64,000 bases of DNA from Acidobacteria bacterium SCN 69-37 (lineage in GTDB: Bacteria; Acidobacteriota; Vicinamibacteria; Vicinamibacterales; SCN-69-37): the NCBI GenBank assembly GCA_001724025.1, contig MEDJ01000006.1:62001-126000 (forward strand), read 5' to 3'. The position numbers and the translations under genes are program-made. Position 1 is the stretch's first letter; each line of letters begins with the position of its first letter. The notes under the pieces were generated by a model. That model was given only the letters and a program-made list of their open reading frames with translations. It ran no database searches and was not told where the DNA came from. Shown piece by piece: positions 13,345-60,596 of this stretch.

Positions 13345-13352
13345 GGGCTCGC

Positions 13353-18065: not shown

Positions 18066-22745
<4,680 letters not shown>

Positions 22746-28698: not shown

Positions 28699-28923
28699 CG
28701 CAGCCTTCTCCTTCACGACGCAGCGAGTGCGTCCGTGCTCTCCACGGGACGTCACGCAGCTCGATTGCTTGATTGAGAAAGCCGTCGACCGTGCCGTGAG
28801 GGCGCCGGCGTTCAGCGCCTCCGCGCCTGGCGACACGGAGGCAGTTGCTCTTGGCAACACAGGGTGGGCGAGATGATCGTACCGACTCAGGAACACCCGG
28901 TCAACTGGCTCCGGGCTTGGCCG

Positions 28924-33872: not shown

Positions 33873-34299
33873 TGGTGCTCTCCTTGAACGCCGAGGATCG
33901 AAGACCGACGGCGTGGTTGCGTTCGCGCGGATCAGACTGATGCCACGGAACAGGGGCAGGACGTGCGACCCGACGGGTGCGCACGCGGTGACGGAACAAC
34001 CGTCTCAGACACTTAGATGAACGCGGGTTTGGGGCGGAATCTTTCCGGACCGCTCAATTGGCTATCGGACCGAGCGGAGTGGCTGTGCTCTTGGGACCTG
34101 AGGTTCGGGTGCGCTCGATGACACGGCGCGCAGCCGCCCGCCCTCGCCGCTGGGGGATGTGTGAGAGGCGGGGGGTGCGCCTTCGAGATCTGACCCAATA
34201 CATCCGTTGCCACATGGGTATTCCAGCGGGCTTTGGTGCCGAGCCGGCGATGTCTGAAGACCAGGCCGGGGTCCCGGCTCACTTGACAACATGCTCCAG
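33873..34299. other. Intergenic, no gene seen
   Basis: About 430 bases between the second SpoVG-like gene and the PglW-like remnant. Frames on both strands look random. The promoter of the 33552 gene should lie at its left end. Confidence 0.4.
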
Positions 34300-34499
34300 C
34301 TTCAGCAGCGCGACCTCCCGGTGCAAGGACGAGCAGGTCGACCTCACTGATCGTACCGTCGCCAGCGATGAACTCGAAGTTCGTCTAGGCGGGATAGACT
34401 TCCTAGTCAGGCAACCGCTGACGCACGAACTCCAACGTCTCTTCTTCCCAGGGGAACGAGGACTCGGTGATGACGAACCAGCGGAGGGGACAAGGGCAT
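34300..34499 (-). pseudogene. Remnant of the N-terminus of a PglW-like (NERD kinase) gene
   Basis: The minus strand reads LRWFVITESSFPWEEETLEF, VRQRLPD, TAG, EVYPA, TAG, TNFEFIAGDGTISEVDLLVLAP. This closely resembles the first 60 residues of PglW-type NERD-domain kinases of phage-defence loci, which begin with an ITES-FPWE segment and the nuclease-related EFI-DDG-EVDLLV strand pair. Two in-frame TAG codons and loss of the rest show decay. It is 9 bases beyond the AIPR gene. The match is from memory. Confidence 0.5.
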
Positions 34500-34508
34500 T
34501 GGGGAAGG

Positions 34509-36278
34509 CTACTGCAGCTTCTTGTGTACCCAGCCCCACCGTTTGTAAGCCAGAGCCATCGACTTCTCGAAGGCCCGATCCGTCCTGAGGAAGCTCAGAT
34601 TCTCCTCAGCTACCTTGTCGGCATAGTCTTTGTCGGTCAGGAGTTCAGAAAGCAACACGCGGACACGCGTGGTGGCAATCCGCGTCACGAGTTCGCTGTA
34701 GTCGGCCGGTACGGAAATGGACGTGCCGTGCTTCTCTGCCACTTCCTCGAGATTCTTCTCGTTCAGCAAGCCTTGGCAGACGAGTGCCCACAACAGGTTG
34801 CGGGCCCTCGACACGAACCAGTACTTGTTCTGGCCCTTCTGCTCGATCTCCTTCGTCAACTTGCGCAGACGAAACTGCACCTTGTAGCAGAGAAGGACGT
34901 GGCGAGAGTCAGCCTGAAGCCTGCCCCTTCGAAAGACCTGGCTGTACATCTTCTCGTCTTCGAATACGCGACGCATCTCCGATAGACGGCTGATCAGACC
35001 GTCGGTCAAAAGGAACGTCTGGGTCAGCTTCAGCAGATGAATGGGCTTGCCGTCCTCTTTGATTCCGTATTCGTCGAGATCCTCTGTGCTCAACTGATCG
35101 AATGCATTGTCCTGCCGCTCGTAAAAGATCGAGAGATCCGTCTGAAACTTCTCCTGCAGCTCGACCTGGATAAGGTCATTGGCGTGCAGGTTCCAGGGCT
35201 CCACCGGATTCTGACGGTTGTTGTTGATGGTAACGCTGGTGACAAACTGATCGTCGGCCTGCGTGATGACCCGACACATGAGCCGTATGGCATCGAGGCG
35301 ATCCCGCCCGTCATCGAGGCGGCGGTCTTCCTTCGCGCTTTCGAGGAACGACGCGGTGGTGGTCACGGTCTGCGCTCCGTTCAAGAGGCGCGGCGAGACG
35401 AGGACGTACTTGCCGTCTCGCTTCTCGAAGCGCTCGGCATAAAGCGTGATGCCGTTGTGATTAAACGCAAACACATCCGGCGACTCAACGGCGTCGATAA
35501 CAATGCGCCTCAGTGCTCTACCGATCGCCCGATTGACCGCCTCCCCCTCGCCGAGTCCGTAGCGAATGTTGCGATCGAAGAAGCGCGGTCCGATCTGCCG
35601 GCGCATCTGCACCAGATCGACCAGACGAATGAAGCCCACTTTCATCTGTTCGCCACCGGGACCGGCAATCTCCAGCAGTGAGTCCAGCTCGACCGAAAAG
35701 CTCCGGGCGGTCGGCGCGGCCGTTGGCGGACCGCCGACACGCCCGCTGGCCGAGCGGTACTCGATCACGAGGCGTACTTCACGGCCGAAAAACTCGTCCA
35801 CCAGGAAGCGTCTGTTTTCCAGGTCTTCCCGGAGCCGCTCGAGAACAGGACTTCTCTCAGCCTCTTCAGGGTCTCCGAGGAAGACGAATCTGATGCAGAC
35901 TTGATCGATCAGAGCCCGATTCTCGTTGATGCATGCGCTAAGCTGAAGTAACAGCTGGTTCTTGGCTGTGTCCTTGTTCGGCTCGGCGAAGATGCGCTGA
36001 AGACCGATGTCCTTGAGACGCTGGAGCGACTGCTTGAAAAGGCCGACAGACTTCGAGTATTTGAACTGAAAGAGGTAAAGGTTCCGTTGATCGCGGTCGA
36101 AATGGAACCCATCAATTCCATAGTCATTCCCGCCAAACGCCACGCAGTTCACTGCCCGTTCGCGGACTACGTTGTACTCGTTCTCCAGATAGAGAAGGCC
36201 GAAGTAGTCTTCACGCACGCCTCCGCACGCGCGACGTAGGTCCGAGAATGCCTGGTCAATGAGCCTGTCAGTGATCAC
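34509..36278 (-). CDS. AIPR-family abortive-infection protein with Mrr-like nuclease motif
   Basis: 589 residues. The middle and C-terminal parts match AIPR (abortive infection phage resistance) proteins: DVFAFNHNGITLYAERFEK, LLNGAQTVTTTASFLES, SVTINNNRQNPVEPWNLHANDLIQVELQEKF. The N-terminal region has GNDYGIDGFHFDRDQRNLYLFQFKYSK, giving D56 and Q71-F-K73, the D...QxK form of the PD-(D/E)XK nuclease site as in Mrr. It likely senses infection and cuts nucleic acid. It stands alone. GC content is lower than its neighbours, which suggests separate acquisition. Confidence 0.85.
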   Translation of the reverse strand: MITDRLIDQAFSDLRRACGGVREDYFGLLYLENEYNVVRERAVNCVAFGGNDYGIDGFHFDRDQRNLYLFQFKYSKSVGLFKQSLQRLKDIGLQRIFAEPNKDTAKNQLLLQLSACINENRALIDQVCIRFVFLGDPEEAERSPVLERLREDLENRRFLVDEFFGREVRLVIEYRSASGRVGGPPTAAPTARSFSVELDSLLEIAGPGGEQMKVGFIRLVDLVQMRRQIGPRFFDRNIRYGLGEGEAVNRAIGRALRRIVIDAVESPDVFAFNHNGITLYAERFEKRDGKYVLVSPRLLNGAQTVTTTASFLESAKEDRRLDDGRDRLDAIRLMCRVITQADDQFVTSVTINNNRQNPVEPWNLHANDLIQVELQEKFQTDLSIFYERQDNAFDQLSTEDLDEYGIKEDGKPIHLLKLTQTFLLTDGLISRLSEMRRVFEDEKMYSQVFRRGRLQADSRHVLLCYKVQFRLRKLTKEIEQKGQNKYWFVSRARNLLWALVCQGLLNEKNLEEVAEKHGTSISVPADYSELVTRIATTRVRVLLSELLTDKDYADKVAEENLSFLRTDRAFEKSMALAYKRWGWVHKKLQ

Positions 36279-36633
36279 TTGTTGTCCTCATTCCCACTTC
36301 GTTGTCTGCAGGGAATCGTTGCAGTGCTTTGACAGCCAAGAGAACACGCGATGCGGCCCCCTGCAGCTGCACCTGAGGCCACGCGGACTGCCTCGGTCTG
36401 GTCGTCCCGCCAACCGCACCGATCTACTCGTCTGTTGCTCCCAGTCAGCGCTTTCAAATTGTCGAGATTCTATCTCGGCATATCGTGATCCCAGCCGCTG
36501 ACAGCCCAGGTCCTACGCAGTTTGTTCGCCAGAGTGCGAAGGGGAGGGACGCGAGCGACAGTATGGACGGCCTCGACGCGCGGGCGGCGCCGGTCGAATC
36601 GACTGGAGCTTCGGCGGGGTCAGGAAAGCGCGC
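36279..36633. other. Intergenic, no gene seen
   Basis: About 350 bases between the AIPR gene start and the end of the second ParB-like gene. It must carry the AIPR promoter. No repeat, hairpin or small gene stood out. Confidence 0.4.
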
Positions 36634-37530
36634 TCACGCGGTGGTCCCTTGGTCCAGTGAACTCGCCGCCACGACTGTTTGAAGCTCGGTCAGGAACTCA
36701 GCATGGCGTTTCTGCAGGTAGCGGCAGATTCTCGGATTGGCGAGCAGTTTGGCCAGATAGCCTGAAGCGATCACGAGATTCAGGACGTCATCGCCGTACC
36801 TGGACTCGACGCTTTTGACGTCTTCCTGAAGAGCGTCCATCTCGCGTTCCATCCGGGCCATCTGCTCAGGTGTAAGGCCGCCTACCTTCTTGGGTTGATC
36901 CGAGTTCACGAGCTGAGATTGCTTGGTAGCGGCGAGCAGCGCGCGGGCGTAGCTGGCCGAGAAATTGGCGGCCGTGATCATCAATTCGGCCGCCTCGATC
37001 TGTCGTCCGGGTTTCATCTTCCGAAGAGCACCGAAGATGGTCGCGTTCGCCACCCGCTCCTTGAGCAAGTCCACGACTTCCGGGCAGATGCCGATGAGCA
37101 TCGTGCGCCGTCGCTGGATGCCCCGCACATCCAGGTTGAGGGCTTTCGCCAGCCGCTCCTCGGACACACCTCGCTCGAGCGCACGAACGATCATCAGGTG
37201 CTCCTGAATCGGCGCTAGCCTGTTGATCCGCTTGTTGTAGGTGAACGCTTCGTCGTCGGTAGCTACCAGGCAGGTCACGGTCGCGACGCCTGCCTCTGCC
37301 AAGGCGGCGTGGCGCAAGTGCCCGTCGAGCAGCATGAAGCGATCCATCTCGGTCTTCGAGCGGGCAACGACGATCGGCTCGATGACGCCAACCGCCGCAA
37401 TCGACGCGGCGATCTGGCGATACTTACTGGACGTCCTGATGGCCGGAGATACTGCCTTCAAGGGCAGGATCGCGGCCATCGACAACTGAACGGTGTGTGA
37501 CTCAAATGCGGGCACGACACGCGTCGACAT
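36634..37530 (-). CDS. ParB/RepB-like partition protein 2
   Basis: 298 residues. A ParB/Srx-type N-terminal domain (SKYRQIAASIAAVGVIEPIVV, LLDGHLRHAALAEAG) is followed by a helix-turn-helix (SEERLAKALNLDVRGIQRRRTML) and a RepB-type C-terminal region (GRQIEAAELMITAANFSASYARALLAAT). ParB proteins bind DNA sites, and many use CTP to slide. No parA is nearby. It is four bases downstream of the other ParB-like gene, third in an operon headed by a serine recombinase. Confidence 0.85.
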   Translation of the reverse strand: MSTRVVPAFESHTVQLSMAAILPLKAVSPAIRTSSKYRQIAASIAAVGVIEPIVVARSKTEMDRFMLLDGHLRHAALAEAGVATVTCLVATDDEAFTYNKRINRLAPIQEHLMIVRALERGVSEERLAKALNLDVRGIQRRRTMLIGICPEVVDLLKERVANATIFGALRKMKPGRQIEAAELMITAANFSASYARALLAATKQSQLVNSDQPKKVGGLTPEQMARMEREMDALQEDVKSVESRYGDDVLNLVIASGYLAKLLANPRICRYLQKRHAEFLTELQTVVAASSLDQGTTA

Positions 37531-37534
37531 CAGT

Positions 37535-38428
37535 TCACCTCGCGACCCGAACGCGCTCGGCGAGAGGCCGCGGAAGGTTGTTCAGCCCCTCCGCTTGCAG
37601 CAGCGTCACGAAGTCCTCGTCGTCGAGAAGGCGTCGCATGGTGTTCACGACGAATAAGAGCCGACGCTGGCTGAGGTTTGCCCGTCTGACCAGCAGCTTC
37701 TGTCGCTCGGTCTCCTTTCTGTAGGCCCGGACGAGGGAGTCGGCGGACACGCGTTTCCGTGCGCTCGGGCGCTCGCGGCCGTTCTGTCCGAGGCCCTTTC
37801 CATTCGCCCGCCGTTGTTCGATGATCCCCCGGATGGCCAACACCTGATTGCCTGGAAGGGACCGCTGCTCGTACGCCTCCGTCAGCGCCAACTGCACATC
37901 GGCCTCGGGTGCCTTCGCGATCTCCATGGCAATCGTCGCCGGTACGACACCCCGGTCTACGGCGGCGAGCAGACGGTTCTCGCCATGGTCGAGCAGGTAG
38001 CAGATTGCCGAAATGTACTCGTCGCTGAACGCCGTCTTGATGGCGATCTCGGTGATCGAGTAGCCGCGTCCCCGCAGATCGCCAATCTGTCGCATCAGGT
38101 CAAGTGGGGAATGCTGTCGACGGGCCAGATTTTCGACAAGGCTCATGACAAAGCAGTCTTCTTCGGATGCCTCCACGACGACGGCGCTGATTTCCGTCTC
38201 GCCGAGCGCCACAAACGCTTCAAGGCGCCCCTGTCCGCACACGAGGTCGTAGCCGTGCCGCCCTTGTCTCTGGCAGACCGTGATCGGCCTCTTCAGACCG
38301 AGTTGGCGGATGCTGGTAACCAGCTCGTTGAAGACCCGCCGGTTGCGGGCCCGGGGATTCATCACCGCAATTGCTGCAATCGGAATGAGCCGAACCCCTC
38401 CAGTGGTCTCAGTCGAGGTGATGGTCAT
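37535..38428 (-). CDS. ParB/RepB-like partition protein 1
   Basis: 297 residues. ParB N-terminal signature VFNELVTSIRQLGLKRPITV, DLVCGQGRLEAFVALGE and SLVENLARRQHSPLDLMRQI, then a helix-turn-helix (GYSITEIAIKTAFSDEYISAI) and a basic C-terminal coil (RAYRKETERQKLLVRRANLSQRRLLF). The start overlaps the recombinase stop in ATGA, so translation is coupled. It is clearly different in sequence from the second ParB, so the two are probably non-redundant. Confidence 0.86.
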   Translation of the reverse strand: MTITSTETTGGVRLIPIAAIAVMNPRARNRRVFNELVTSIRQLGLKRPITVCQRQGRHGYDLVCGQGRLEAFVALGETEISAVVVEASEEDCFVMSLVENLARRQHSPLDLMRQIGDLRGRGYSITEIAIKTAFSDEYISAICYLLDHGENRLLAAVDRGVVPATIAMEIAKAPEADVQLALTEAYEQRSLPGNQVLAIRGIIEQRRANGKGLGQNGRERPSARKRVSADSLVRAYRKETERQKLLVRRANLSQRRLLFVVNTMRRLLDDEDFVTLLQAEGLNNLPRPLAERVRVAR

Positions 38429-39972
38429 GCGACCCTTCCGATCGCCGTCCGCGAGGCGAGGTAGAAGAACGGCTCGAGCGAATCGTAGCGGAAGCTATCC
38501 AGGTCCAGACCGTTCTCATCGCGGAGGCGGAGAGGGCCGGCCGGCACGCCCAGACGAGGCAAGAGGTAGTAGTCGAGTGCCGATTGGTTCGCGAGATCCA
38601 TCCGAACGGCCACCGTGATATCCGGTCGAAGACTCGCGTCCAGTCGAATGGTCCAACGCCGGGCGCCTGATGGGAGTTCAACGCAACGGCTGATAACCAC
38701 CGAAGTGGTGAACTCGCCGTTCACGGTCAGCAGGTCGGTAGTCGGGTCCACGTCCACTTCTCCCCCACCGCTGCGGATGGACGCGACGGCGTCCGCCACG
38801 ACATGTGGATGCATGGCGCGTAGCGCGCGATTGACCTCGACGTATCGAAAGTCGCGCTCCGGGTTGTACCCGACGAGTTCGTATGCCCTCAAGAGACTGC
38901 CGAAGCGACATCGGTAGGCGGAACTGGACGGCAGGTCGTCCTGCTCGTCGATGACGAGGGCGGACAAGCGCCCGACGTTCTGAAGCAGAACCGAAAGTCG
39001 GCCGAGCATGTCCTGATCCGAGTATCTCTTGGAGCGCTCAGCGATGATCTGTTGAACGGTGCCGTAGACAGCCTGATTCACGACGCCTGGGAAAGCGCCC
39101 TCGGCACGAACCCACATATCGGGAGGATTAGAGACCCGATTCTTCTTCAGTTTGAACGACGTCCGATTGTAGAGGTTGTTGCCGATGTACTTCTCGTTGG
39201 TGAGGACCTGATGCACCGTTCCACGTGTCCAGGGCCGCTTCAGGTCTGTCGTTCGATCCTCGCGGTTCAGCAGGTCTGCAATCTGCTGCTCCGAGTGGTC
39301 CTCGAGAAAGAGGCGGTACATGCGGCGGACCGTTTCCACCTCGTCGATCGGTCCCTGCACGAGGACCACTCGATCGGTCTGAATGCTCTTCTGGACGCCA
39401 ATCGCCAACTCGCCCTTGGGCGTTCGATGCTCATCGATCAATTGCCGGCGCAACCCGTAGCCGGCGAGTCCACCCTGCCTGAATCCCAGAGTGATGAGCC
39501 GGCACTGCCCCGTGAACACCTTCGCGGACAGCTCCCGACTGTACTCACCCGCCATTGCCCGCTTCATGCTCTTGATGATGGTCGCGCTCAGGCTGCCGTC
39601 GTTCTCGAACTGCTCAGCACAGTAGTGCACGATGATTCCTGCCTCTTTGCAGAGGTATTCGTAGTAGGCGCTCTCATCCGCGTCCTGGAAACGGCCCCAG
39701 CGGCTGACGTCGTAGACCAGGACGGCAGTGAAGTCGGCACGGCCTGATCGAACATCGTCGATCAGTTGCTTGAGGGCATCACGTCCATCCAGGCGAAGCC
39801 CGCTCTTGCCGTGGTCGGCATACGTCCGCACGATTTCGAAGCCCCGGTCGCCCGCGAACCTTCTGATGATCTCCGCCTGATTCTCGGTGGAGTACTTCTG
39901 GTGCTCCGTGGACATGCGCACGTACTCCGCAGCTTTGACAGACAGGCCTTGCGCTCCGGTCGCTTCAGTCAT
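38425..39972 (-). CDS. Large serine recombinase
   Basis: 515 residues. The resolvase/invertase catalytic domain opens with AAEYVRMSTEHQKYSTENQ, placing the nucleophile at S21, followed by RPxxxD-like FTAVLVYDVSRWGRFQD. The Recombinase domain (AGYGLRRQLIDEH, NREDRTTDLKRPWTRGTVHQVLTNEKYIGNN) follows. Instead of the usual zinc-ribbon and coiled coil, the C-terminal 150 residues form an unfamiliar region. It cuts and religates DNA at specific sites. It heads an operon with two ParB-like genes. Confidence 0.88.
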   Translation of the reverse strand: MTEATGAQGLSVKAAEYVRMSTEHQKYSTENQAEIIRRFAGDRGFEIVRTYADHGKSGLRLDGRDALKQLIDDVRSGRADFTAVLVYDVSRWGRFQDADESAYYEYLCKEAGIIVHYCAEQFENDGSLSATIIKSMKRAMAGEYSRELSAKVFTGQCRLITLGFRQGGLAGYGLRRQLIDEHRTPKGELAIGVQKSIQTDRVVLVQGPIDEVETVRRMYRLFLEDHSEQQIADLLNREDRTTDLKRPWTRGTVHQVLTNEKYIGNNLYNRTSFKLKKNRVSNPPDMWVRAEGAFPGVVNQAVYGTVQQIIAERSKRYSDQDMLGRLSVLLQNVGRLSALVIDEQDDLPSSSAYRCRFGSLLRAYELVGYNPERDFRYVEVNRALRAMHPHVVADAVASIRSGGGEVDVDPTTDLLTVNGEFTTSVVISRCVELPSGARRWTIRLDASLRPDITVAVRMDLANQSALDYYLLPRLGVPAGPLRLRDENGLDLDSFRYDSLEPFFYLASRTAIGRVA

Positions 39973-40043
39973 CGCGGTCTCGCTTCACCTTCTTGCCGCC
40001 CTCAGCGAAAGGGCCGCAACTGGTAGCACGGAGAGGCTTCAGA

Positions 40044-40059
40044 ATCGCTGAATAGCGAT
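40044..40059. promoter_or_regulatory. Dyad in the divergent recombinase / HTH promoter region
   Basis: ATCGCT (40044-40049) and AGCGAT (40054-40059) are separated by GAAT. The dyad sits in the 111-base gap between the leftward recombinase and the rightward HTH gene, a plausible operator for the HTH protein. Confidence 0.35.
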
Positions 40060-40083
40060 CAGGCTACGCCAAGGAGGTCGGGA

Positions 40084-40446
40084 ATGTCGCTTCCGAAAAA
40101 TGACCGAAACTTTCGGCCAGAAAGTGGAAATAGATTTCCGACCGTTCCGTTCGCGACGGCCGTTGCCGCCGCTCTGCACCGTGAGTACGACCACACGGGG
40201 GACGGCGTCGCAAGGGTCGTCGCACTAACGGGCGCGAACGAGCGGACCGTGCGCAATTGGTTCGAGGCGAAGAATGGGCCTGGCGGGGACTACCTGATTG
40301 CGCTGTGCCGTCACTCGGACGAAGTGCTTGAGATCATCCTGACGCTCGCCGGGCGCGCAACGCTCGCCAAGGTGGCGAGTCTGGAGCAGGTGCGGCGACG
40401 ATTGACAGAGGTCCGGACGCTGCTGGTTGGGCTTGACCTCGACTGA
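40084..40446 (+). CDS. Small HTH-like protein divergent from the recombinase operon
   Basis: 120 residues from an ATG behind AAGGAGGTCGGGA. The segment ARVVALTGANERTVRNWFEAKNGPGGDYLIALCRHSDEV looks like a helix-turn-helix of phage-type regulators that recognise DNA through TVRNWF. The C-terminal half is helical (RRRLTEVRTLLVGLDLD). It may regulate the divergent recombinase-parB-parB operon. Confidence 0.65.
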   Translation: MSLPKNDRNFRPESGNRFPTVPFATAVAAALHREYDHTGDGVARVVALTGANERTVRNWFEAKNGPGGDYLIALCRHSDEVLEIILTLAGRATLAKVASLEQVRRRLTEVRTLLVGLDLD

Positions 40447-40830
40447 CTGCGGCCGGTCGGTCAATGGCTATGTCACGTCACCCGCCGCAGCAGCACCATC
40501 CACCCGGGCTACTCGAACGTGGCCGGTTCCTTCACGAAGAAGGGCCCAAGTGACGTTCGCAACCAGTTGCCCACGGCCGGTCACTCGTACCGCTGCCCCT
40601 GCAGTTGCGCGATGTGGGCTCAACCTGCCGCAGGGAGGCCTGCGGATCCTGGAGAATCGACATCGCTGGTCCGGGGAACCTGACTCAAACGGGCCAGGAC
40701 GTGCGGCCACACCTGATCAGAACCGTGCCCATTCTACCCAACGCCGTCCAACGCAGCAGAATGAGGAACGTTCATGCGGGTGAACGCGAGGTCCGCCCAC
40801 CGCGCGGTCGCGCTCGACGTGGATGGGGTT
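40447..40830. other. Intergenic, no gene seen
   Basis: About 380 bases between convergent genes. Frames are open by GC bias only. No RNA gene or strong hairpin was found. Confidence 0.4.
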
Positions 40831-41034
40831 TCACGTGGGCTCGGCGGGCTGCGATTTGTAACCGCCCGACACGACCGGGTCGATCCGGTCGGCCTGGGCG
40901 TGCGCCCATGAGGACCAGGTCTCAAGCTCATCCGCGGTCATGGGTTCGGCGGCCGTCGCGTTGAGCGCCTTCACGGCCTCGACATAGGCGCGAATACGCG
41001 ACGCCTGGTGCAGGGCAACATTCTCATCACTCAC
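40831..41034 (-). CDS. Hypothetical small protein, 67 residues
   Basis: From a GTG at 41034 (SDENVALHQASRIRAYVEAVKALN). The product is a helical, acidic protein with MTADELETWSSWAHAQADRID. It overlaps the end of the DUF4406-like fragment upstream by eight bases, which suggests coupled translation. It is a common small partner downstream of DUF4406-type genes in mobile DNA, but the function is unknown. Confidence 0.5.
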   Translation of the reverse strand: MSDENVALHQASRIRAYVEAVKALNATAAEPMTADELETWSSWAHAQADRIDPVVSGGYKSQPAEPT

Positions 41035-41182
41035 CGACCGCCGGTATCTCCTCCAGCGTTCGGAATACGGGCTTGCCACGGCGCACGAATGCCGCCACTT
41101 CCTCGTCGGCGCCAGGCGATCGTCCACCGATCCGGAAAATGGCGTCGCAGCGATCCGTCAATAGCAAAGACAGCGGCATCAT
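41027..41182 (-). pseudogene. DUF4406 / nucleoside deoxyribosyltransferase-like C-terminal fragment
   Basis: About 51 residues from an ATG at 41182: LSLLLTDRCDAIFRIGGRSPGADEEVAAFVRRGKPVFRTLEEIP. This is the end of DUF4406-type proteins (RCDAxxRxPG-SxGADxEV, GxPVFxSLEE). The N-terminal half with the nucleotide-binding ISGP motif is absent upstream. A short but functional protein cannot be excluded. Confidence 0.45.
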
Positions 41183-41366
41183 GACCGAGTCGTACGTAGC
41201 CTGTCCGGGGCCTCCGTGCAACCCGTGAGCCCGGTTCGCAACCCGCCAACAGACTCCGAAGCATAGCCGAGGAGGCGCGCTCGGCCGGTAACAAGGCGTC
41301 GGTTCGCTCGCCACGTCTTGGACAGTGACCTTGGCTGACACAGCCGCTCGGTTACACTGGCCTCGA

Positions 41367-42164
41367 ATGATGGTCGCAGACCCGGTCGCTACTCTCAGGC
41401 CGCCCCTCAAATGGGCGGGCGGCAAGCGGTGGCAGGTGCCCCACTTGCGGCCCCTCTGGGCCGCTCACACGCACCGCAGGCTGGTGGAGCCGTTCTGCGG
41501 CGGGCTCGCTGTCACTCTTGGCTTGATGCCGAGTGCGGCCGTCCTGAACGACGCGAACCCTCATCTGGTCAATTTCTACCGATGGCTCCAGAAGGGGTTA
41601 CGAATCGACTGGCCGATGGAGAACGACGAAGCCTCGTTCTATAGGCTTCGCGAACGTTTCAACGCCATCCTGGCGAGCGGCAGGGCCAACACGAAGGAAG
41701 CGGCGGGCCTGTTCTACTACCTGAACCGGACGGGCTACAACGGACTCTGCCGCTTCAACAGCCGGGGCGGATTCAATGTTCCGTTCGGGCGCTATCGGAC
41801 CATCAACTACACGCGGGACTTCACCCCCTATCGCGAGCTGATGGCGTCATGGACGTTCACGCTTGGCGACATCGCCGACGTGAACCTTGAACCGGGTGAT
41901 TTCGTTTACGCGGACCCTCCGTACGACGTCGAGTTCACGCAGTACTCGCAGGGCGGCTTCGACTGGGACGACCAGCAGCGCACGGCGGAACTGCTCGCCA
42001 GGCACCGCGGACCAGTGGTCTTGGTGAATCAGGCCACCGACCGTGTCGAGCGTCTGTATCGCAAGCTCGGTTTCACCGTGAACCACCTGGCCGCTCCACG
42101 GCGGATCAGCTGCACAGGCGACCGCACGCCGGCCCAAGAAGTCATCGGAATGAGAAACCTATGA
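41367..42164 (+). CDS. D12-class DNA adenine methyltransferase
   Basis: 265 residues. Class alpha N6-adenine methylase order: PPLKWAGGKRWQVPHL (AdoMet pocket), LVEPFCGGLAVTLGL, LNRTGYNGLCRFNSRGGFNVPFG and the catalytic D-P-P-Y in FVYADPPYDVEF. It is Dam-like and should methylate adenine in a short site. It is coupled through an ATGA overlap to the nuclease-like gene, forming a compact restriction-modification unit. The recognised sequence is unknown. Confidence 0.9.
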   Translation: MMVADPVATLRPPLKWAGGKRWQVPHLRPLWAAHTHRRLVEPFCGGLAVTLGLMPSAAVLNDANPHLVNFYRWLQKGLRIDWPMENDEASFYRLRERFNAILASGRANTKEAAGLFYYLNRTGYNGLCRFNSRGGFNVPFGRYRTINYTRDFTPYRELMASWTFTLGDIADVNLEPGDFVYADPPYDVEFTQYSQGGFDWDDQQRTAELLARHRGPVVLVNQATDRVERLYRKLGFTVNHLAAPRRISCTGDRTPAQEVIGMRNL

Positions 42165-42577
42165 CCCCTCGGAACACGAACACAGGTGGCGTGTTGGAGG
42201 CCATGGTGGTTCCGGCGTTGGAGCGGGGCGGTTACGCCTGCCAGACACAGGTGAAGGTTGGTCAACGGTGCGGCGGCGGGATCCACAAGGTAGATGCCAT
42301 TGCCACGCGAAGCGGCGAAAAGGTGCTCGTGTCGATGAAGTGGCAGCAGACCGGTGGCACTGCTGAACAGAAAGTACCGTTCGAGGTGATGTGCCTGGCT
42401 GACGCCGTGAGGGCAGAGCACGCCCTCCGCGCGTACCTTGTCCTCGGAGGCGACGGCTGGACGCTCCGGGACTACTACACCTCAGGCAAGTTGTCGGAAC
42501 ATCTGGTGCACGCCTCTCTGGTCCGTGTCGTGACGCTGGAGGCGTTCATTCGAATCGCCAACAACGGCCAACTTTGA
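42161..42577 (+). CDS. PD-(D/E)XK-type nuclease, probable restriction enzyme partner
   Basis: 138 residues. NTNTGGVLEAMVVPALERGGY begins the fold. GGGIHKVDAIATRSGEKVLVSMKWQ gives D45 and S58-M-K60, a PD-(D/E)XK site in which the usual acidic residue before lysine is serine or lies elsewhere. QTGGTAEQKVPFEVMCLADAVR is typical of this small nuclease family. Translational coupling to the adenine methylase argues for a type II restriction endonuclease. Confidence 0.75.
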   Translation: MTPRNTNTGGVLEAMVVPALERGGYACQTQVKVGQRCGGGIHKVDAIATRSGEKVLVSMKWQQTGGTAEQKVPFEVMCLADAVRAEHALRAYLVLGGDGWTLRDYYTSGKLSEHLVHASLVRVVTLEAFIRIANNGQL

Positions 42578-42847
42578 CCCAGCGTCACCGGCCGCCGATT
42601 TGCTAGCTTCGTCTGCACCGCGACAGCAGTGAGCACTTGGAGACGCCACGGCAGCCAGCCGCGACAGGGCCGCGCCCCTCGAGAGAAAACCATTTGACCC
42701 TCCTTTGCCGCCCCGAAGCGAAAGCGGCACATTTCTCGCAGCCATCACCCCACTTGCGGTGAATAGGTCGAACTGACCGTCAGACGTGAAGGCGTGAGTT
42801 CGATTCTGTAATCAGACAGCCTGGAGTCGGCTGGGGAGTGCACGGTT
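42578..42847. other. Intergenic between the restriction pair and membrane cargo genes
   Basis: About 270 bases with locally lower GC. The cargo operon promoter is probably here. A GAGTTCGATTC stretch near 42797 resembles a tRNA T-arm but no tRNA fold surrounds it. Confidence 0.35.
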
Positions 42848-43111
42848 ATGGCCAAGACCGGGATCACGGGAGTTCGCATCGCGCTGATCCTGATGATCGG
42901 GGCCTGCCTCGTGGGCCTGATTCCGGGCTATCGCGAGACGTACCCGGACACGTGGGAAGTCGTCGAGCGAGTATTCGGTGTCGCCTTCTTCTCCTTCTTC
43001 CTGTGGGCCGACCTCACGCCGTCTCGGACAACCGCACCGGTGGGAAGGTCCAGCCAGTCAATTGGTCGCGAACCGATGGGCATCGACGACGAAGGCGGGG
43101 ACGCAGGATGA
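42848..43111 (+). CDS. Small membrane protein, 87 residues
   Basis: Two hydrophobic spans (IALILMIGACLVGLIPGY, RVFGVAFFSFFLWADL) and a polar acidic tail. No family recognised. The stop overlaps the next start (ATGA), so it is made with the DUF6804-like protein. Confidence 0.5.
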   Translation: MAKTGITGVRIALILMIGACLVGLIPGYRETYPDTWEVVERVFGVAFFSFFLWADLTPSRTTAPVGRSSQSIGREPMGIDDEGGDAG

Positions 43112-43410
43112 CCGCTTCGCTCGTGGCGCTGGGTATGGTCCTCGTCGGACTGGGTGACATGCCGTATGGCTACTACATGCTTCTACGGCTCGTTCTCTGC
43201 GGCATTTGCCTCTTTCACCTGCTCGGTGGGCATCCACCGGCGAGCGACTGGCAGCGTTGGGTCACCGGCGGGTTCGCCGTGCTGTACAACCCCATCGTTC
43301 CGATTCAGCTGGGCGACAAGGACCTCTGGATTGTTATCAACTTCCTGACTGTGGGCTGGCTATTCTTCATCGAGCGACAGTCCAAGACCAGTGCCGGCGT
43401 TCGTACCTAG
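43108..43410 (+). CDS. DUF6804-like membrane protein
   Basis: 100 residues with three to four short membrane spans. DMPYGYYMLLRLVLCGICLFHLL, TGGFAVLYNPIVPIQLGDKDLWIVINFLTVGWLF fits DUF6804-type proteins (YYxLLR, FNPIIPIHL, W-VID). Function is unknown. Coupled to the preceding gene. Confidence 0.65.
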   Translation: MTASLVALGMVLVGLGDMPYGYYMLLRLVLCGICLFHLLGGHPPASDWQRWVTGGFAVLYNPIVPIQLGDKDLWIVINFLTVGWLFFIERQSKTSAGVRT

Positions 43411-43482
43411 CGCCATCGCCTCCGGAGCCAAGCTCTGGATACTCACGCATGCCTACCGATCGGCTATCGAGGGTCTGTAACA

Positions 43483-44799
43483 ATGTGGCATCCAAACCGA
43501 TTGCAGTGGGCTGTCATTTGGGTATGTACGCTCATCGCGCTGCTCTTGTGGGTTGGCGACGCGCCACCCTACGACGGCGGCACTTCCCGGCTTGCGGTGG
43601 CCGTACTGGTCGTGGGCGGTTTGCTTGTCTGGAACCTGTCCGGGCGCGGTCGAAGTGGCGCGGTGCGTCCGGAGACGCAGGCGACTTCAACCCCAACGCC
43701 GGCCTCGTCGTCCGCCGTGCCTCTGCCCTTGTGCCCGCAATGCGGGCGTAGCCTCGCCGGCGCGGCATTCTGCGAATGCGGACGCTCGTCTTTGTCCTCG
43801 ACGGACCAGCAGCGGCTGACCGGTGTTCGAGGGTGGCTCGCACTGTTCGTGTTCGGTTGGCTAGTCGGCGGACCAGCCGTGCTGATCTTGGCCTTCGCTA
43901 GCTTGGTCCCTGAACTTGGCGATTGGTCCGCCGCTGATGCTCTGCGGGCTGGCGGACCGTTGACGGGCATGGCGTTGACCTCGGTCGTCGGAGCCTACGC
44001 CGGCTGGCTGCTGTTGTTCCGACGCTCGACCGGGCCTCAGGTCGCACGGCTCGCTCTCGTCTCGTCGGTGTTCTACTTCGTAGCACTCTCCGTGGCCATG
44101 GGCCTCTTGCTGGGCGCCGTTGAGGCGGGCAGGGCATTGGGCCAAGGCTTGGGCGGTCTAATCGGAATGCTGTTCTGGTGGCAGTACTTCGACAAGTCGA
44201 AACGTGTCGCTGCCACGTTCGGAGTCGGAGCCGCACGGACACGCCCGCCGGTCTCGCATGTGGTCGGAGTTCTCGCCGCCGTGCTCCTCGTCACGGTTGG
44301 TCCGGTCGTTGTTGTGAGTCTCTCGTGGCCATCGTCGCAGGGTACGTGGATGAGGTTCTCTCCCGAAGGCGGTCAATTCGCGGCGCTGTTGCCCGGAGAG
44401 CCGACAGTCAGCTATGAAAGCGACGCCGATGACCCGTCCGTCCTCATCACGTCCGCAATGGTGGAGACGTCGGACGGAGCGGCCTTTCTTATCGCCTACT
44501 TCGACTTCCCATCGCACTATGATCTCGACGAAGGCGCCATCCTGGGTCGGGCCATGGACGACCGGATGGCGGCGCTCAACCTTCAAAAGGGCAGACGGAC
44601 TCTTGTCGAAGCAAATGGCTTCTATGGGGTCGGAAGTAGCGGCACCTCCGACAGCCTAGCACTGGACGGAAAGGTCCGGCTGTTTCTGGTTGGCCGCCGT
44701 TTGTATACCGTCATCGCGCTATCTCCATCCCCGCAATCATCGGTTCACTCCAGCGCAGCGCAGAAATTCCTGGCGTCGTTCGCCCCGTACCCCGAGTAG
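43483..44799 (+). CDS. Zinc-ribbon DUF2569-like membrane protein with outer domain
   Basis: 438 residues. Two N-terminal spans are followed by a zinc-ribbon-like CPQCGRSLAGAAFCECG (residues about 86-102). A DUF2569-like four-helix membrane block comes next (LTGVRGWLALFVFGWLVGG, FYFVALSVAMGLLLG, GMLFWWQYFDKSKRV). The last 150 residues, after one more span, form a soluble domain (MRFSPEGGQFAALLPGEPTVSYE) resembling PsbP-like lipoprotein folds. It could sense and respond at the membrane. No function is known. Confidence 0.65.
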   Translation: MWHPNRLQWAVIWVCTLIALLLWVGDAPPYDGGTSRLAVAVLVVGGLLVWNLSGRGRSGAVRPETQATSTPTPASSSAVPLPLCPQCGRSLAGAAFCECGRSSLSSTDQQRLTGVRGWLALFVFGWLVGGPAVLILAFASLVPELGDWSAADALRAGGPLTGMALTSVVGAYAGWLLLFRRSTGPQVARLALVSSVFYFVALSVAMGLLLGAVEAGRALGQGLGGLIGMLFWWQYFDKSKRVAATFGVGAARTRPPVSHVVGVLAAVLLVTVGPVVVVSLSWPSSQGTWMRFSPEGGQFAALLPGEPTVSYESDADDPSVLITSAMVETSDGAAFLIAYFDFPSHYDLDEGAILGRAMDDRMAALNLQKGRRTLVEANGFYGVGSSGTSDSLALDGKVRLFLVGRRLYTVIALSPSPQSSVHSSAAQKFLASFAPYPE

Positions 44800-44910
44800 C
44801 CTCACCAGCCCAGGCAGCGCGGTGGGTTGCGGCCGGCTGGCCGTCGGGATGCCCGGCCCGGTCTCCGAAATGGGGTTCGCTGTGCCACAATCCTGCCGGG
44901 ACCTTTCGGT

Positions 44911-45435
44911 ATGGCAGATAGCAGGCGCGAGGCGCTGAAGACCATTGCTTGGGGAGTGCTCTGGATCGTCGGCGCCGTCGCGGTCTGGCTTCAATCCGCA
45001 GGCAATCCGATTCACGACCTACGACTCGCGCTGGGTGCCGAGGTTTCTCCCGGACGCGTGACCGATTCCTGGGAGGACACAGACGACGGAGACGACGGTC
45101 GGCTGAACTGGTGGAGCGCCGTGGCCTATACCTTCGTGCTGCCTGACGGCCGGGAGATCAAGTCTGGCGACTCCGGAAGCGGTCGACTGCGGCCCGAATT
45201 CGCGGACATCACCGATCCGGTTCCGGTCGAAGTCGAATACCTTGCAAGTTCACCAACGATCAACAGGCTCCGGGGCAGTGGCAGTCAGAGCCTCGGCGAA
45301 TGGCTTCTACGGAAGGTGGGGCTTGGTGGCGTCTTGCTCGTCGTCTTCCTGATGCCGGGAGCCCACCTGCTGCGTAGCGGCATCGCCGATTTGCGTGGTG
45401 AGGCACGCGCGCAGCCCTCGGAGGCAGGCGAGTGA
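44911..45435 (+). CDS. DUF3592-like membrane protein
   Basis: 174 residues. Two membrane helices, near each end, flank an outer beta domain (LGAEVSPGRVTDSWED, VAYTFVLPDGREIKSGDSG, VPVEVEYLASSPTINRLRG), the DUF3592 layout in which a duplex of signals and a beta domain face the periplasm. Function unknown. Last of four membrane cargo genes. Confidence 0.7.
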   Translation: MADSRREALKTIAWGVLWIVGAVAVWLQSAGNPIHDLRLALGAEVSPGRVTDSWEDTDDGDDGRLNWWSAVAYTFVLPDGREIKSGDSGSGRLRPEFADITDPVPVEVEYLASSPTINRLRGSGSQSLGEWLLRKVGLGGVLLVVFLMPGAHLLRSGIADLRGEARAQPSEAGE

Positions 45436-46011
45436 CCGTTCCTGCGACGAGCTGAACGGGTCGCTCTGGTCACGTCAATTGCACTCAGGCACCCTCACTC
45501 TCGCCAGATGTAGAACGTGCCAGCTTCGTCATCATCGGCCTCGTCTGATCGTCTGTCCTTCGTGTCTCGATACTTCTCGTAGCCCAAGTCGTTGCCCGTC
45601 CGAACGAGGGACTACATCCCACGCGCCCTCGTCAACGTCTCGGTCCGCGTCAGTTAATTGCCGGCTTTTGAGGTGTCGACTAATTGAAGGCTCTGGGTGT
45701 CCACCGAGGTATACCTGGCGAACTGGGAAGCTGGCTGCTTGTTCTTGGATGTCGTCGCCACGCGCCAGAGTCTACAAGGCTGTGCCCGAACTGGTCTCGT
45801 TCCGTTCGATTCGGTCAGTTCCATCGGCTCCAACGGCGGCTCGCTGCGGTCAACGCCTTCGGGAACAACGCGTTGGCCGATTTTTAGGCCGAAGCCGATG
45901 AACGCCGACGAACACCGATTTGCGACTCTTAATCTGCTGGTCGACGATTCGATGCCTGCTGGAAGGTCCTCACGAACGCCGCAGGGTTAGCGCTCGACCG
46001 CAACACGCCCC
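45436..46011. other. Intergenic, no gene seen
   Basis: About 575 bases between the DUF3592-like gene and the convergent lipoprotein gene. Both strands have many stops compared with neighbours, and GC is a little lower. No repeat or RNA gene recognised. Confidence 0.45.
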
Positions 46012-46497
46012 TCACTGCTTCGTCAGCACCACCGTCCCCGAGAACGTGGCGAGCTGGCAGTCACTGCCGTTGAAGTCGGCTTCGATCCGCGTCGCCTGCG
46101 CCGTGCCGATGCTGGCGAACGTGCCACGGCAGCCACGCGGTGAGTTGTACTCGCCCTGCGTGCTGATGGACGTTGGTGGCGAGTTGTCTGGTGTCAGCGC
46201 CGTGGACGCCGTCGTCTCGATGGTCAGCCACGGGTCCTGGGACCGAATCGTTGTCTTGAACGTCCGCAGGTCCGTTTGCGGGACGACGGCAAACGTCCAG
46301 GTGATCGGGCCGGTGGTCGGCGGCGGCGCGTCGGGATCACCGGGATTGACCTGAAAGGTGATCGTGCCGGTCCACGTCCCCGTCAGGAACGATGAAGAGG
46401 TCGGCGAAGTTGGCGACGGTGACCGGCCGTCACACCCTGCCAGCAACACGAACAGCGCGATCGGTATCGCGTGCGTTCCTCGCGCGCGCACGTTCAT
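46012..46497 (-). CDS. Lipoprotein at the end of the conjugation operon
   Basis: 161 residues with a lipobox LFVLLAGC at about residue 22, then a Ser/Thr/Pro linker and a beta-rich domain (LTGTWTGTITFQVNPG, GTFASIGTAQATRIEADFNG). The cysteine should be lipid-modified. It lies 20 bases downstream of the VirB11-like ATPase gene. It might act as a VirB7-like or entry-exclusion lipoprotein, but that is inference from position. Confidence 0.6.
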   Translation of the reverse strand: MNVRARGTHAIPIALFVLLAGCDGRSPSPTSPTSSSFLTGTWTGTITFQVNPGDPDAPPPTTGPITWTFAVVPQTDLRTFKTTIRSQDPWLTIETTASTALTPDNSPPTSISTQGEYNSPRGCRGTFASIGTAQATRIEADFNGSDCQLATFSGTVVLTKQ

Positions 46498-46517
46498 GGA
46501 CTCTCCTCCCCCGTTCC

Positions 46518-47495
46518 TCACACGCCGGTCGGCCACGCCTCCAGCACGAACTGCTCGTTCTGGGCGTCGTACCGGCGGAGACCCACGACTTCGCTGACCG
46601 CCCGCCTCCCCTCTTGGCGCGCGATGTGGACGACCAGGTGGATCGCGAGCGCGATGGCCTCCCGTGTGCTGCGATGTGGCAGACCGACGTTCGCGGTCAG
46701 CACGCAGTGCGCGAGCCGCGTGAGTGCCTGCTCCGCGGAGTTCGCGTGGATCGTACTGAGGCTCCCGAGATGGCCGGTGTTGAGCCCTTGCAGGAGGTCG
46801 AACGCTTCCGGACCGCGCACCTCACCGACGAGGATCCGGTCGGGCCGGTGCCGGAGCGTGGCTCGCAGCAGGTCCGAGATGGTCACGGCCGGAAGGGGTG
46901 CTTCCTGGCCGAGCGGCGCTTGCGCCCGTCTCGCCTCGAACCGGACGAGATTCGGCTTGTCGATCAGGATCTCGGACGTCTCCTCAATCAGCACGATCCG
47001 GTCGCTTGCCGGAATCGTCGCCGCCAGCGCATTCAGGAGCGTCGTCTTTCCCGTCCCGGTTCCGCCGGAGATGAGGATGTTGCGTCGGTCCGCGACCGCG
47101 CGGCGCAGCGCCTGCGCCAGCTCCGGTGTCAGCGTCCCGACCGAGACGAGTTCGTCCAGCGAGTACCGATGCGTGAACTTCCGCACCGTGAGCGTGGGTC
47201 CGTCGACCGAACACGGTGGGAACATGGCGGCTACGCGCGAGCCGTCTTCGAGCCTGGCATCGAGCACGGGCTGATGGTCGGAGATCTCGTCTCCACAGGC
47301 GCGCGCAATGTTCTTGATGGCGACGGCGAGATTCCTGACCTCGAGCGTTCGATCGGGAACGGGTTCGACCACTCCGGCACGCTCCACGAAGACGCGCCGG
47401 CCGCCGGCGTTGACCATCACTTCGGTGACCTCGGGATCGACCAGCAGGTCCTCGATGGGCCTGAGGAACGGCAGGATGCGGTCGAGACTGCTCAC
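46518..47495 (-). CDS. trbB: VirB11/TrbB-type conjugation ATPase
   Basis: 325 residues from a GTG overlapping the previous stop (GTGA). Walker A GGTGTGKT at 144-151, the Asp box IVLIEETSE, Walker B and His box (DRILVGEVRGPEAFDLL, GHLGSLSTIHANS) are complete. It forms the hexameric cytoplasmic motor of type IV secretion and closes the secretion gene set, following the coupling protein. Full length for the family. Confidence 0.93.
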   Translation of the reverse strand: MSSLDRILPFLRPIEDLLVDPEVTEVMVNAGGRRVFVERAGVVEPVPDRTLEVRNLAVAIKNIARACGDEISDHQPVLDARLEDGSRVAAMFPPCSVDGPTLTVRKFTHRYSLDELVSVGTLTPELAQALRRAVADRRNILISGGTGTGKTTLLNALAATIPASDRIVLIEETSEILIDKPNLVRFEARRAQAPLGQEAPLPAVTISDLLRATLRHRPDRILVGEVRGPEAFDLLQGLNTGHLGSLSTIHANSAEQALTRLAHCVLTANVGLPHRSTREAIALAIHLVVHIARQEGRRAVSEVVGLRRYDAQNEQFVLEAWPTGV

Positions 47496-49480
47496 AGGGC
47501 ACCTCGCTCGAGATGGTCGAAGTAGCTCTGCCGCACGTCCAGATAGTGCGGCTTCAGGTAGCAGAACTGCGGCGGGAGGGGATTGAGGCCATCATACGGT
47601 AAGGCCACCGCCTGGGCGTTCTGCAGCTCCGTGAATACACGAGGCTGGAACACGTAGTCTGATTCGAAGCTGTAGCTCTTGCTGGCGCTCAGCGTCTGCT
47701 TGGATGCCGCGGCGCGGCCGGTGAGCCAGGAGATGTGGGCGCCCTGGTCCGCCTCGGCCAGCGTGTACCGCGTCTTGAGCCGGTCCCTCTTGCCACACAA
47801 CTCGGCCGCCATGCGGGCCGTGAACTCGTCGCTGGTCGTGAGAAAGAGTTTGGTGCGGAAGCACTGGACGAGCGTGCGCCAGCTCTCATCCCCGCCGAGC
47901 GATGACCGCAGCGAGCTCAGGCTCTGGGTCGCCACGATCGGAATCAAGCGCGCCTGCCGCGACAGCGCGAAGGCGCGTTCGTCTCCCGTGGGATCCGTTT
48001 CCCCGACCGTCGCGAACGCGTGGTACTCGTCCGCCACGAACAGCAGGTCGCGCCAAGACCGCTCCGGGTGCTCCCCCATCTTCGGAATGCGCTGGAGGAC
48101 GGCGCGCTGGAAGTCGAGCTTCAGCATCACCCCAAGGCCACGGGCCAGCGCCGGGTTCAACGCGACCGGGAAGTTGAGCCCCAGGACGTGTCCCGTCTCG
48201 AGCAGTTCTTCGAGCGGCGGCAGCGGTCGCGGTTCTCCCGGCGCCGGCGCCTTCGCATACGCCGACCGGGGCGGACAGAACGCGCGGTACACGTCGGGGT
48301 TCTCGTCGAAGAGCGAGAGAAAGACGACGGCGCCCTCGACAATCGAGGAGCGGAGCTTCGGGTCGAGCCGTGCCCACGCACTGTAGTACCAGCGATCGAT
48401 GGCCTCCAACCGGTGCCACCGATCGGCCGCGATCGCCGCATCGCCGGTGCGGACGGTGAACGGCAGGCCATGTTCCGCCAGGTAGGTCTCGAGTTCGGCA
48501 TCGTACGGGTGCGCCATGTGTGCGCCATCGAACCGCACCCACAACGTCCACGGCGCCTGCTTCAAGTGGAGCGCGTGCTCGACCTGCGGCACGACGAGCA
48601 CATCGCCCGGATTCTTGAACTGTGCCTGCAGCGCGCGGATGTTCTTGTCGATCAGCTTGTCGTCGATGATGTAGCGGTACACCTCGGCCAGGGTGGTGTA
48701 GCCATCGGTGATCCGGCGAAGTGAGATCACGAACTTCAGGAGATCGGTGTACGCCTGCTGCCAGAACGGTTCCTTCGACCGGCCGAAGAGGTTGTTCACA
48801 AGCGTGGCCACGGCGTAGGCGACCGCATACGGGTCGAGATCGTTGTGCAGTGGGTTGTAGCAGACACCGCTGTTGAGCCCGACCTCGACGTAGTCGGCCT
48901 CGCGACCGGCGCGCGTCAGGATGCCGCGCACCTGCCGGCAGAAGTCGCCCTTCACCTCCAGCACGAGACCACCCATCTTGCGGTCGACGTCTGCAGCCCG
49001 CCAGCGCAGCAGCTGGTCGACATACGGGTACATACACGCGGACGTCTTGCCCGTGCCGACGGCACCGAAGATCAGGATGCCGGTGTAGAGACCCCGCTGC
49101 GGAATGGTCAGCCATGTCGGTTCCGGTGCGCGTCCCGCCGAGGTCGGGTGGTGCGCTTCCCCGAGCACGAGGATCGGCGTCGGCCCCGCTTCGGACGCTG
49201 GGAATGGCGGGAGATCACGGTAGCGCGCTGACGGAACGGAGCGGAGTACGAGAACGGTCACGAGCGATGTCAGCATGGACGCCAGCAGGTACGGCGTCGT
49301 GAACCACAACGTGGCGTACCCGTAGGTCAGCACCTGAAAGGCGTGGGGCCTGCGCGCGGCAATCAACGCGAGGAAAGGATTGTCCGTCTGCACCGGGAAG
49401 GCGTGCAGACCCCACGTGCCGACGACGGTGGCGATCACCAGGCCGAGGACGGCGCGATGTTCCAGAAGGGATCGCAGCAT
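47492..49480 (-). CDS. traG: Type IV coupling protein, VirD4/TraG type
   Basis: 662 residues from an ATG at 49480; a GTG at 49489 is an alternative. Two N-terminal membrane spans (AVLGLVIATVVGTWGL, LWFTTPYLLASMLTSLVTVLVL) precede Walker A GAVGTGKT at 139-146 and Walker B DLLFVADEYHAF. The end (FTARMAAELCGKRDRLKTRYTLAE) is TraG-like. It brings the relaxosome to the channel. The stop overlaps the trbB start. Confidence 0.92.
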   Translation of the reverse strand: MLRSLLEHRAVLGLVIATVVGTWGLHAFPVQTDNPFLALIAARRPHAFQVLTYGYATLWFTTPYLLASMLTSLVTVLVLRSVPSARYRDLPPFPASEAGPTPILVLGEAHHPTSAGRAPEPTWLTIPQRGLYTGILIFGAVGTGKTSACMYPYVDQLLRWRAADVDRKMGGLVLEVKGDFCRQVRGILTRAGREADYVEVGLNSGVCYNPLHNDLDPYAVAYAVATLVNNLFGRSKEPFWQQAYTDLLKFVISLRRITDGYTTLAEVYRYIIDDKLIDKNIRALQAQFKNPGDVLVVPQVEHALHLKQAPWTLWVRFDGAHMAHPYDAELETYLAEHGLPFTVRTGDAAIAADRWHRLEAIDRWYYSAWARLDPKLRSSIVEGAVVFLSLFDENPDVYRAFCPPRSAYAKAPAPGEPRPLPPLEELLETGHVLGLNFPVALNPALARGLGVMLKLDFQRAVLQRIPKMGEHPERSWRDLLFVADEYHAFATVGETDPTGDERAFALSRQARLIPIVATQSLSSLRSSLGGDESWRTLVQCFRTKLFLTTSDEFTARMAAELCGKRDRLKTRYTLAEADQGAHISWLTGRAAASKQTLSASKSYSFESDYVFQPRVFTELQNAQAVALPYDGLNPLPPQFCYLKPHYLDVRQSYFDHLERGAL

Positions 49481-49493
49481 CGCCGGCACCGTC

Positions 49494-49817
49494 TCACTGT
49501 GCGCCTGTCGAACTGGACATCGGCCCGGCGTGATCGCCGGACGCCGGTGACGCGGCGAATGGTCGGCGACTCGGCACCCGGCGCCGACGCCCGTTGGCCA
49601 GCGGGCCGGGCACGTACGAATCCCGATTGGTGGTCCGCCACTGCAGGAACTCTTTGTCTTTGGCGAGGACGGTGTCGACGACCTGGTTGAGCACGTACTC
49701 GGTGGACTCACCGATGAACCGGGCGTAGGCGTACAGCGTCTCGTTCGTCTCGTGGTCCAACCGTGTGCGATGTCTGACGAGGCGCTTACCGCGCGAACGG
49801 GGCTTGATCAGGGCCAT
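49494..49817 (-). CDS. Small basic protein next to the candidate oriT
   Basis: 107 residues. The N-terminal half is basic and helical (LIKPRSRGKRLVRHRTRLDHETNETLYAYARFIGESTEYVLNQVVDTVLA), resembling ribbon-helix-helix-type accessory DNA-binding proteins. The tail is Arg/Pro/Ser-rich. Its location between the structured region at 50.0 kb and traG makes a relaxosome accessory or nicking-site binding role likely. No family is certain. Confidence 0.55.
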   Translation of the reverse strand: MALIKPRSRGKRLVRHRTRLDHETNETLYAYARFIGESTEYVLNQVVDTVLAKDKEFLQWRTTNRDSYVPGPLANGRRRRVPSRRPFAASPASGDHAGPMSSSTGAQ

Positions 49818-60303: not shown

Positions 60304-60596
60304 CACGGCGCCACCTCGATGTCGATCCGTTCGTGTTTGCCTGGGTCGTAGCGCCGCCGCGCACGAGACGACGCGAACAGGATGCGGAGCATGTCGGCGT
60401 CGTGGTGCGTGGCCCAGAGCCCGAAGCCGTAGAGACCGGCGAAGACCATCAGGCCTGCCATGAGCGAGTAGAAGAGATTGAACGTGGCGCCGCCCAGCAG
60501 CAGGGCCAGGAAGAACAGGCGCCGGTCGATGCCGCAGACGGTCAACGGCCGGTGCAGGGCTTTGCACACGGTGCGAAAGGTCGGACCTTCAGTCAT
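60303..60596 (-). CDS. trbD: VirB3/TrbD-type membrane protein
   Basis: 97 residues. KALHRPLTVCGIDRRLFFLALLLGGATFNLF and GLMVFAGLYGFGLWAT form the two membrane spans of VirB3-type proteins, with the typical HRPLT lead. It is coupled to the VirB4-like gene (TGATG), the usual B3-B4 pair. Confidence 0.85.
   Translation of the reverse strand: MTEGPTFRTVCKALHRPLTVCGIDRRLFFLALLLGGATFNLFYSLMAGLMVFAGLYGFGLWATHHDADMLRILFASSRARRRYDPGKHERIDIEVAP

Follow-up and report, generated by a model that had tools for sequence, protein, structure and literature searches.

Large serine integrases are the closest described systems, and in those that are known an element-encoded partner protein modulates the reaction (PMC5814800, PMC3783163). 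The locus analysed here is an operon of three genes, hereafter the trio, encoding a large serine recombinase and two ParB/RepB-like proteins, B1 and B2. With the integrases of SPbeta (YokA/YotN), PhiC31 and Bxb1, it shares the Resolvase and Recombinase domains, the serine motif and the fold of the first approximately 325 residues, but its recombinase has neither the C-terminal zinc ribbon nor the coiled coil, and is always accompanied by the two ParB/RepB-like partners encoded in the same operon. We know of no directionality factor that resembles such a pair. B1 and B2 themselves are similar in sequence and fold to RepB (PF07506)/ParB, Noc and KorB, from which they differ in being linked to a recombinase, in their altered nucleotide-site motifs and in the absence of ParA or replication genes from the trio.

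Two further systems call for comparison. Gamma-Mobile-Trio islands are tyrosine-recombinase (GmtY) trios carrying defence genes; compared by description only, they resemble the present locus as a three-gene recombination module beside defence cargo, whereas the recombinase is of the tyrosine type there and of the serine type here (Pfam), where it has ParB-like partners. A survey of Paracoccus prophages described a cluster of serine recombinases without identifiable integration (att) sites in alphaproteobacterial prophages (PMC6536676). This cluster is possibly the family of the trio recombinase, but ParB is linked there to DNA methyltransferases and not to the recombinases. A literature search for recombinase/ParB combinations, with subscription journals and preprints mostly outside its reach, returned no description, and the trio is apparently undescribed as a system. 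Most likely, it is a variant of large-serine-recombinase element with two ParB-like accessory proteins.

Gene content and spread of the trio

The operon lies in a stretch of 64,000 nucleotides from Acidobacteria bacterium SCN 69-37, the whole of which is referred to as the window (table 1). An initial annotation, made from the sequence, had described a large serine recombinase and two ParB/RepB-like genes that overlap or lie four bases apart, with an HTH gene and a dyad placed divergently. This layout was correct: the last 4 bp of the recombinase gene are shared with B1, and B2, the second of the partners, follows after a 4-bp gap. According to Pfam, the recombinase contains a Resolvase domain (PF00239, 8e-23, residues 14-151) and a Recombinase domain (PF07508, 3e-21, residues 210-313), B1 contains ParB_N and RepB (PF07506, 6e-27) and B2 contains RepB (PF07506, 5e-54) with a sub-threshold ParB_N. 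No other PF07506 protein is encoded in this 4.43-Mb genome. B1 and B2 are diverged paralogues, which align with each other over part of their length at roughly 25-33% identity, and each is 46-65% identical to its plasmid orthologues. The dyad is real, if weak, and several alphaproteobacterial plasmid copies have a homologue of the HTH gene at the corresponding position (23-43% identity); none is annotated at the trio in Escherichia coli. The HTH protein is probably a repressor of the divergent trio operon.

Table 1. Positions of the features discussed, in the window unless a locus is named.
Feature	Position	Strand	Evidence or remark
Large serine recombinase, 515 aa	38425-39972	(-)	Pfam, relatives alignment, AlphaFold2 model and fold search
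B1, ParB_N + RepB (PF07506) protein, 297 aa	37535-38428	(-)	Pfam; plasmid relatives
B2, RepB (PF07506) protein with degenerate ParB-like N domain (DGHxR motif), 298 aa	36634-37530	(-)	Pfam; fold match
Divergent small HTH protein, 120 aa	40084-40446	(+)	HTH_23 weak; homologues beside plasmid copies
Dyad ATCGCT-N4-AGCGAT, between HTH gene and recombinase gene	40044-40059	.	Weak, 6-nt arms
Variable cargo hotspot of the ICE, holding the trio module	34050-46533	.	Conserved backbone on both sides in relatives
AIPR/AbiU-like defence protein, directly downstream of the trio, cargo	34509-36278	(-)	PF10592 6e-20; PADLOC AbiU 2e-23
Dam-type adenine methyltransferase and PDDEXK_11 protein, cargo	41325-42577	(+)	PF02086 5e-38; PF20472 8e-12
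Tyrosine integrase, likely the ICE's own integrase	27583-28896	(-)	PF00589 4e-17
TraD-like gene	47492-49711		ICE-type
TraG/VirB4-like gene	57880-60567		ICE-type
Structured RNA, examples	L161:6556-6693; L080:9381-9518; L033:18368-18505		After B2
T-arm-like repeat	L041:9458 and 13340; L236:443, 5999, 9883; L235:3083, 5999		Rhizobiaceae plasmids

The recombinase is 43-77% identical to 43 relatives, and in the alignment of these 44 sequences the catalytic YVRMST serine motif and other residues of the catalytic domain are invariant. Its last approximately 200 residues are of another kind. Indeed, no Pfam domain was detected after residue 313, conserved cysteines are absent from the C-terminus in the alignment of relatives, and the SPbeta, PhiC31 and Bxb1 integrases match the AlphaFold2 model (mean pLDDT 83.8, pTM 0.51) over about 325 alignment columns of the 515 residues. 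Since solved integrases align over this length only, the region that holds the zinc ribbon and the coiled coil in them is, on the predicted model, replaced by a family-specific region; neither of the two was found by Pfam, fold search or cysteine check. The initial annotation had likewise judged the C-terminal part to be unlike the usual zinc ribbon and coiled coil.

Relatives of the recombinase were drawn from plasmids, one-per-species genomes and IMG/VR. Downstream sequence of 2.2 kb or more was available at 132 genome and viral loci, and 130 of them display the recombinase, B1 and B2 in this order, at recombinase identities ranging from 77% down to 43%, and this recurrence excludes a chance arrangement. 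The replicons involved are plasmids, chromosomes and prophage contigs, and the annotated plasmid loci show the same trio with mostly overlapping genes. In E. coli, the trio is present in 653 of 5,426 complete genomes, with both partners and a recombinase 43% identical to that of the window; it is always chromosomal there, on no plasmid of the collection, and is carried by strain BL21(DE3), at 2625334-2628669 of NZ_CP053602.1. Searched across genomes, the three-gene set is thus a real, widespread unit; it is not a peculiarity of this element, which the initial annotation had named as an outcome that would speak against its reading. A 13-kb linear record labelled as a plasmid of Lactiplantibacillus plantarum (L048, NZ_CP110863.1) also holds a proteobacterial-type trio, possibly through contamination.

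The presence of PF07506 in both partners raises the question of partition. Two diverged ParBs without ParA had been reported by the initial annotation, and no ParA-like (AAA_31) match exists in the window; neither RepA nor RepC adjoins B1 and B2, whose neighbours are the recombinase and the HTH gene, and both proteins fall far below the cut-off of the NCBIfam RepB models. Genuine host ParA-ParB pairs are encoded on contigs C4 and C1. Ordinary partition is rejected on this distribution, and the other outcome that would have spoken against the initial annotation, a match of the two ParBs to a nearby ParA-encoded system, did not arise either. The B2 model finds its best fold matches in ParB, Noc and KorB, followed by sulfiredoxin and SerK, and the GERR CTPase motif of ParB is replaced by GQGR in B1 and by DGHLR in B2, where DG-R is invariant (36 sequences). 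The earlier suggestion of a self-contained recombination module rather than ordinary partition is supported; a role in segregation finds no support. We also give very little credence to a ParA-less variant, in which B1 and B2 would partition or stabilize an excised element and the recombinase would resolve its multimers. Site-specific resolvases do occur in partition loci, both partners have the RepB partition domain and the operon is common on plasmids; however, the serine recombinase is large and not small, the GERR motif is altered in both proteins, genuine ParAB pairs are found elsewhere in the genome, and the trio is also found in prophages and on chromosomes, and in the E. coli collection on chromosomes only.

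Genomic context and module ends

By its genes, the window resembles an integrative conjugative element (ICE): in addition to a tyrosine integrase, it has TraD-like, TraG/VirB4-like, RND and P-type ATPase genes. In relatives from the same taxonomic order, the backbone is conserved at window 29.2-34.05 kb and from 46.53 kb onward, and the DNA between the two blocks amounts to about 1 kb in two relatives, 8.5 kb of other DNA in one and 12.5 kb in the window, where it comprises the AIPR/AbiU, trio, Dam and PDDEXK genes. The trio thus sits in a hotspot of variable cargo and is not needed as the integrase of the ICE. As in the window, a second integrase accompanies the trio in E. coli and in some prophages, so that the larger element can do without the trio for its integration. 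The hotspot belongs to an ICE family of this taxonomic order, and relatives L228-L230 have other contents there. The Dam and PDDEXK pair has a 75%-identical copy in the same genome (G000:C6:56905-58155), and its relatives occur in many genomes that lack the trio.

In E. coli, a tyrosine integrase at ssrA precedes the trio, and type I RM or TIGR04141/Hxs genes come after it; in strain GF153, the trio lies within an island beside a tRNA-Arg gene. The ORFs flanking the relatives matched defence models for DISARM, Dpd, BREX, Qat, AbiE, type I RM and McrBC, among others, in a descriptive scan with no matched control set, and phage and metabolic genes were found in these flanks too. At two loci (L195 and L196), a NusG/RfaH-like gene stands on each side of the trio, the two copies being in direct orientation. 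The defence role considered by the initial annotation is supported by the neighbourhood only, through the AIPR/AbiU gene of the window and the defence genes beside relatives; a PADLOC scan of the recombinase and B1 gave no match. It is accordingly improbable, in our estimate, that the trio is an anti-phage system in its own right, with ParB-like proteins sensing or loading on invading DNA and a recombinase cutting or rearranging it: many copies are indeed flanked by defence genes, as in the window, but the scan that revealed them is descriptive, phage and metabolic genes turn up in the flanks as well, and prophage contigs too carry the trio.

The ends of the module are clearest in Agrobacterium. 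In the stretches compared, plasmids pAtC58 and pAt1D1460 have only the HTH-trio block in common (9457-13360, approximately 3.9 kb, 97%), between unrelated flanks, and imperfect 27-bp direct repeats resembling a tRNA T-arm are located at both breakpoints in both plasmids. Taken alone, the alignment scores of these repeats, 14.8 and 14.0, exceed the 95% point of a cross-locus null (13.6) without reaching its 99% point (15.6), but the repeats coincide in position with the breakpoints. In this genus, the trio appears to move as a unit with recognizable ends, as the initial annotation had proposed to look for. Some 35 module-less plasmids of Agrobacterium, Rhizobium and Neorhizobium match the right flank of pAtC58, and among those listed the match starts exactly at the repeat. 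The DNA before the repeat is different each time in the four that were read; the adjacent Fic gene is thus itself cassette-like, and the module-less plasmids are in consequence not clean empty sites. A clean empty site turned up neither for the window copy nor for any other, including those of E. coli, where one was specifically sought.

Other replicons offer further boundaries. Aminobacter and Rhizobium plasmids have the module in common as a separate block, with a similar site at its left edge in Aminobacter. At the E. coli locus L224, the last approximately 75 codons of a tyrosine integrase are duplicated on each side of the trio (19488-19719 and 23445-23677, 82%), and in Roseomonas plasmids a tyrosine-integrase fragment is followed by the trio and a restriction endonuclease gene, then by the integrase, with a direct repeat of 81%. 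Such duplicated integrase ends would fit insertion into gene ends, and homologous recombination could also give them. At L038, the two copies of the tyrosine-integrase 3' end that flank the trio lie at 14278-14407 and 19515-19642. For the window copy, no end repeats were found above the chance null, and ARAGORN detected no tRNA gene in the window or in 16 plasmid loci.

In Rhizobiaceae plasmids, the T-arm-like repeat (approximately 24 bp) stands just behind the stop codons of genes that are unrelated to one another, Fic and LysR among them, in the manner of a cassette boundary. This raises the alternative of a resident recombinase which, instead of mainly moving itself, would swap or invert neighbouring defence cassettes at repeated sites, like an integron. 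The single orientation of the site behind several unrelated genes points in this direction, as do Sphingobium plasmids, which vary in cargo on both sides while the trio and an adjoining block stay. However, in Agrobacterium it is the module itself that forms the common block between unrelated flanks, and the T-arm-like site, possibly a remnant derived from a tRNA, occurs only in Rhizobiaceae plasmids and shows no enrichment near the trio in other replicons. We regard such shuffling as rather unlikely, and favour a module that inserts itself. The T-arm-like site was also considered as a general att site and rejected, its 6 matches in 257 kb of boundary zone all being in four Rhizobiales loci and 5 of the 6 being sites from which the matrix was built.

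A structured RNA downstream of B2

Downstream of B2, 73 loci share approximately 105 bp followed by a GC hairpin. This conserved DNA was at one point taken for the start of a terminase gene, a candidate dropped when covariation revealed a structured RNA of approximately 135 nt, located immediately downstream of B2 at about 75 loci, or about half of those that carry the trio. In the alignment, 94.3% of cells pair and 18 pairs change on both sides; double changes number 132, as against 38 after shuffling and no more than 27 in slid controls. The one member tested against Rfam matched no family at threshold. A covariance model retrieved further RNAs after B2, including one at L091, where an insertion interrupts B2, and on the recombinase tree (FastTree) the RNA is scattered, with 14 changes versus 48 for shuffled labels. 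At six other loci (L127:13394-13536, L152, L156, L157, L158 and L160), B2 is followed by a different, apparently structured sequence with a boxA-like CTTTAACAAT start.

In the window, the covariance model gave weak matches only, the best (15.6 bits, versus 80-151 for true members) lying away from B2 at 46917-47064, and folding of the 234 nt that follow B2 was no better than that of shuffled sequences (z +1.36). An RNA-assisted recombination, in which the recombinase, the two ParB-like proteins and the RNA would act together, the RNA choosing or regulating the site, would require that branches such as that of the window have lost the RNA or carry one diverged beyond recognition; we hold this to be a long shot.

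Proposed mechanism and significance

Given the gene set, conservation and neighbourhood observed, and the boundaries observed in some relatives, we consider it reasonably probable that the trio is an obligate three-protein module of site-specific recombination, which uses its ParB-like proteins as accessory factors and inserts itself into mobile elements. Against this reading weigh the searches that gave no clean empty site and, for the window copy, no end repeats, the second integrase beside several copies, and the possible origin of long duplicated gene ends by homologous recombination. The recombinase would cut and rejoin DNA at short attachment sites forming the edges of the module, with a C-terminus devoid of the zinc ribbon and coiled coil used elsewhere for half-site recognition and synapsis control. 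B1 and B2 would probably attach to the DNA next to these sites and, by bridging or spreading, permit or direct synapsis; because the operon is strictly conserved, the simplest reading is that the recombinase depends on both as obligate partners for site binding, synapsis or direction. Plasmids, ICEs, islands and prophages would be the targets into which the module inserts itself, sometimes together with a small defence gene; in the window it lies in the cargo hotspot of an ICE, any att sites of this copy being putative.

Large serine recombinases are important tools of genome engineering, and how they recognize sites and choose direction is a live question. If the proposed mechanism is true, a family without the usual C-terminal control domains would represent a different solution to the control of site and direction, and proteins of the ParB fold would gain a role in recombination. 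In any case, this family is common, is present in E. coli BL21(DE3) and is found beside defence cargo in mobile elements, and so bears on how islands change: the stretches of accessory genes in which the trio sits, often anti-phage ones, may owe part of their mobility to it.
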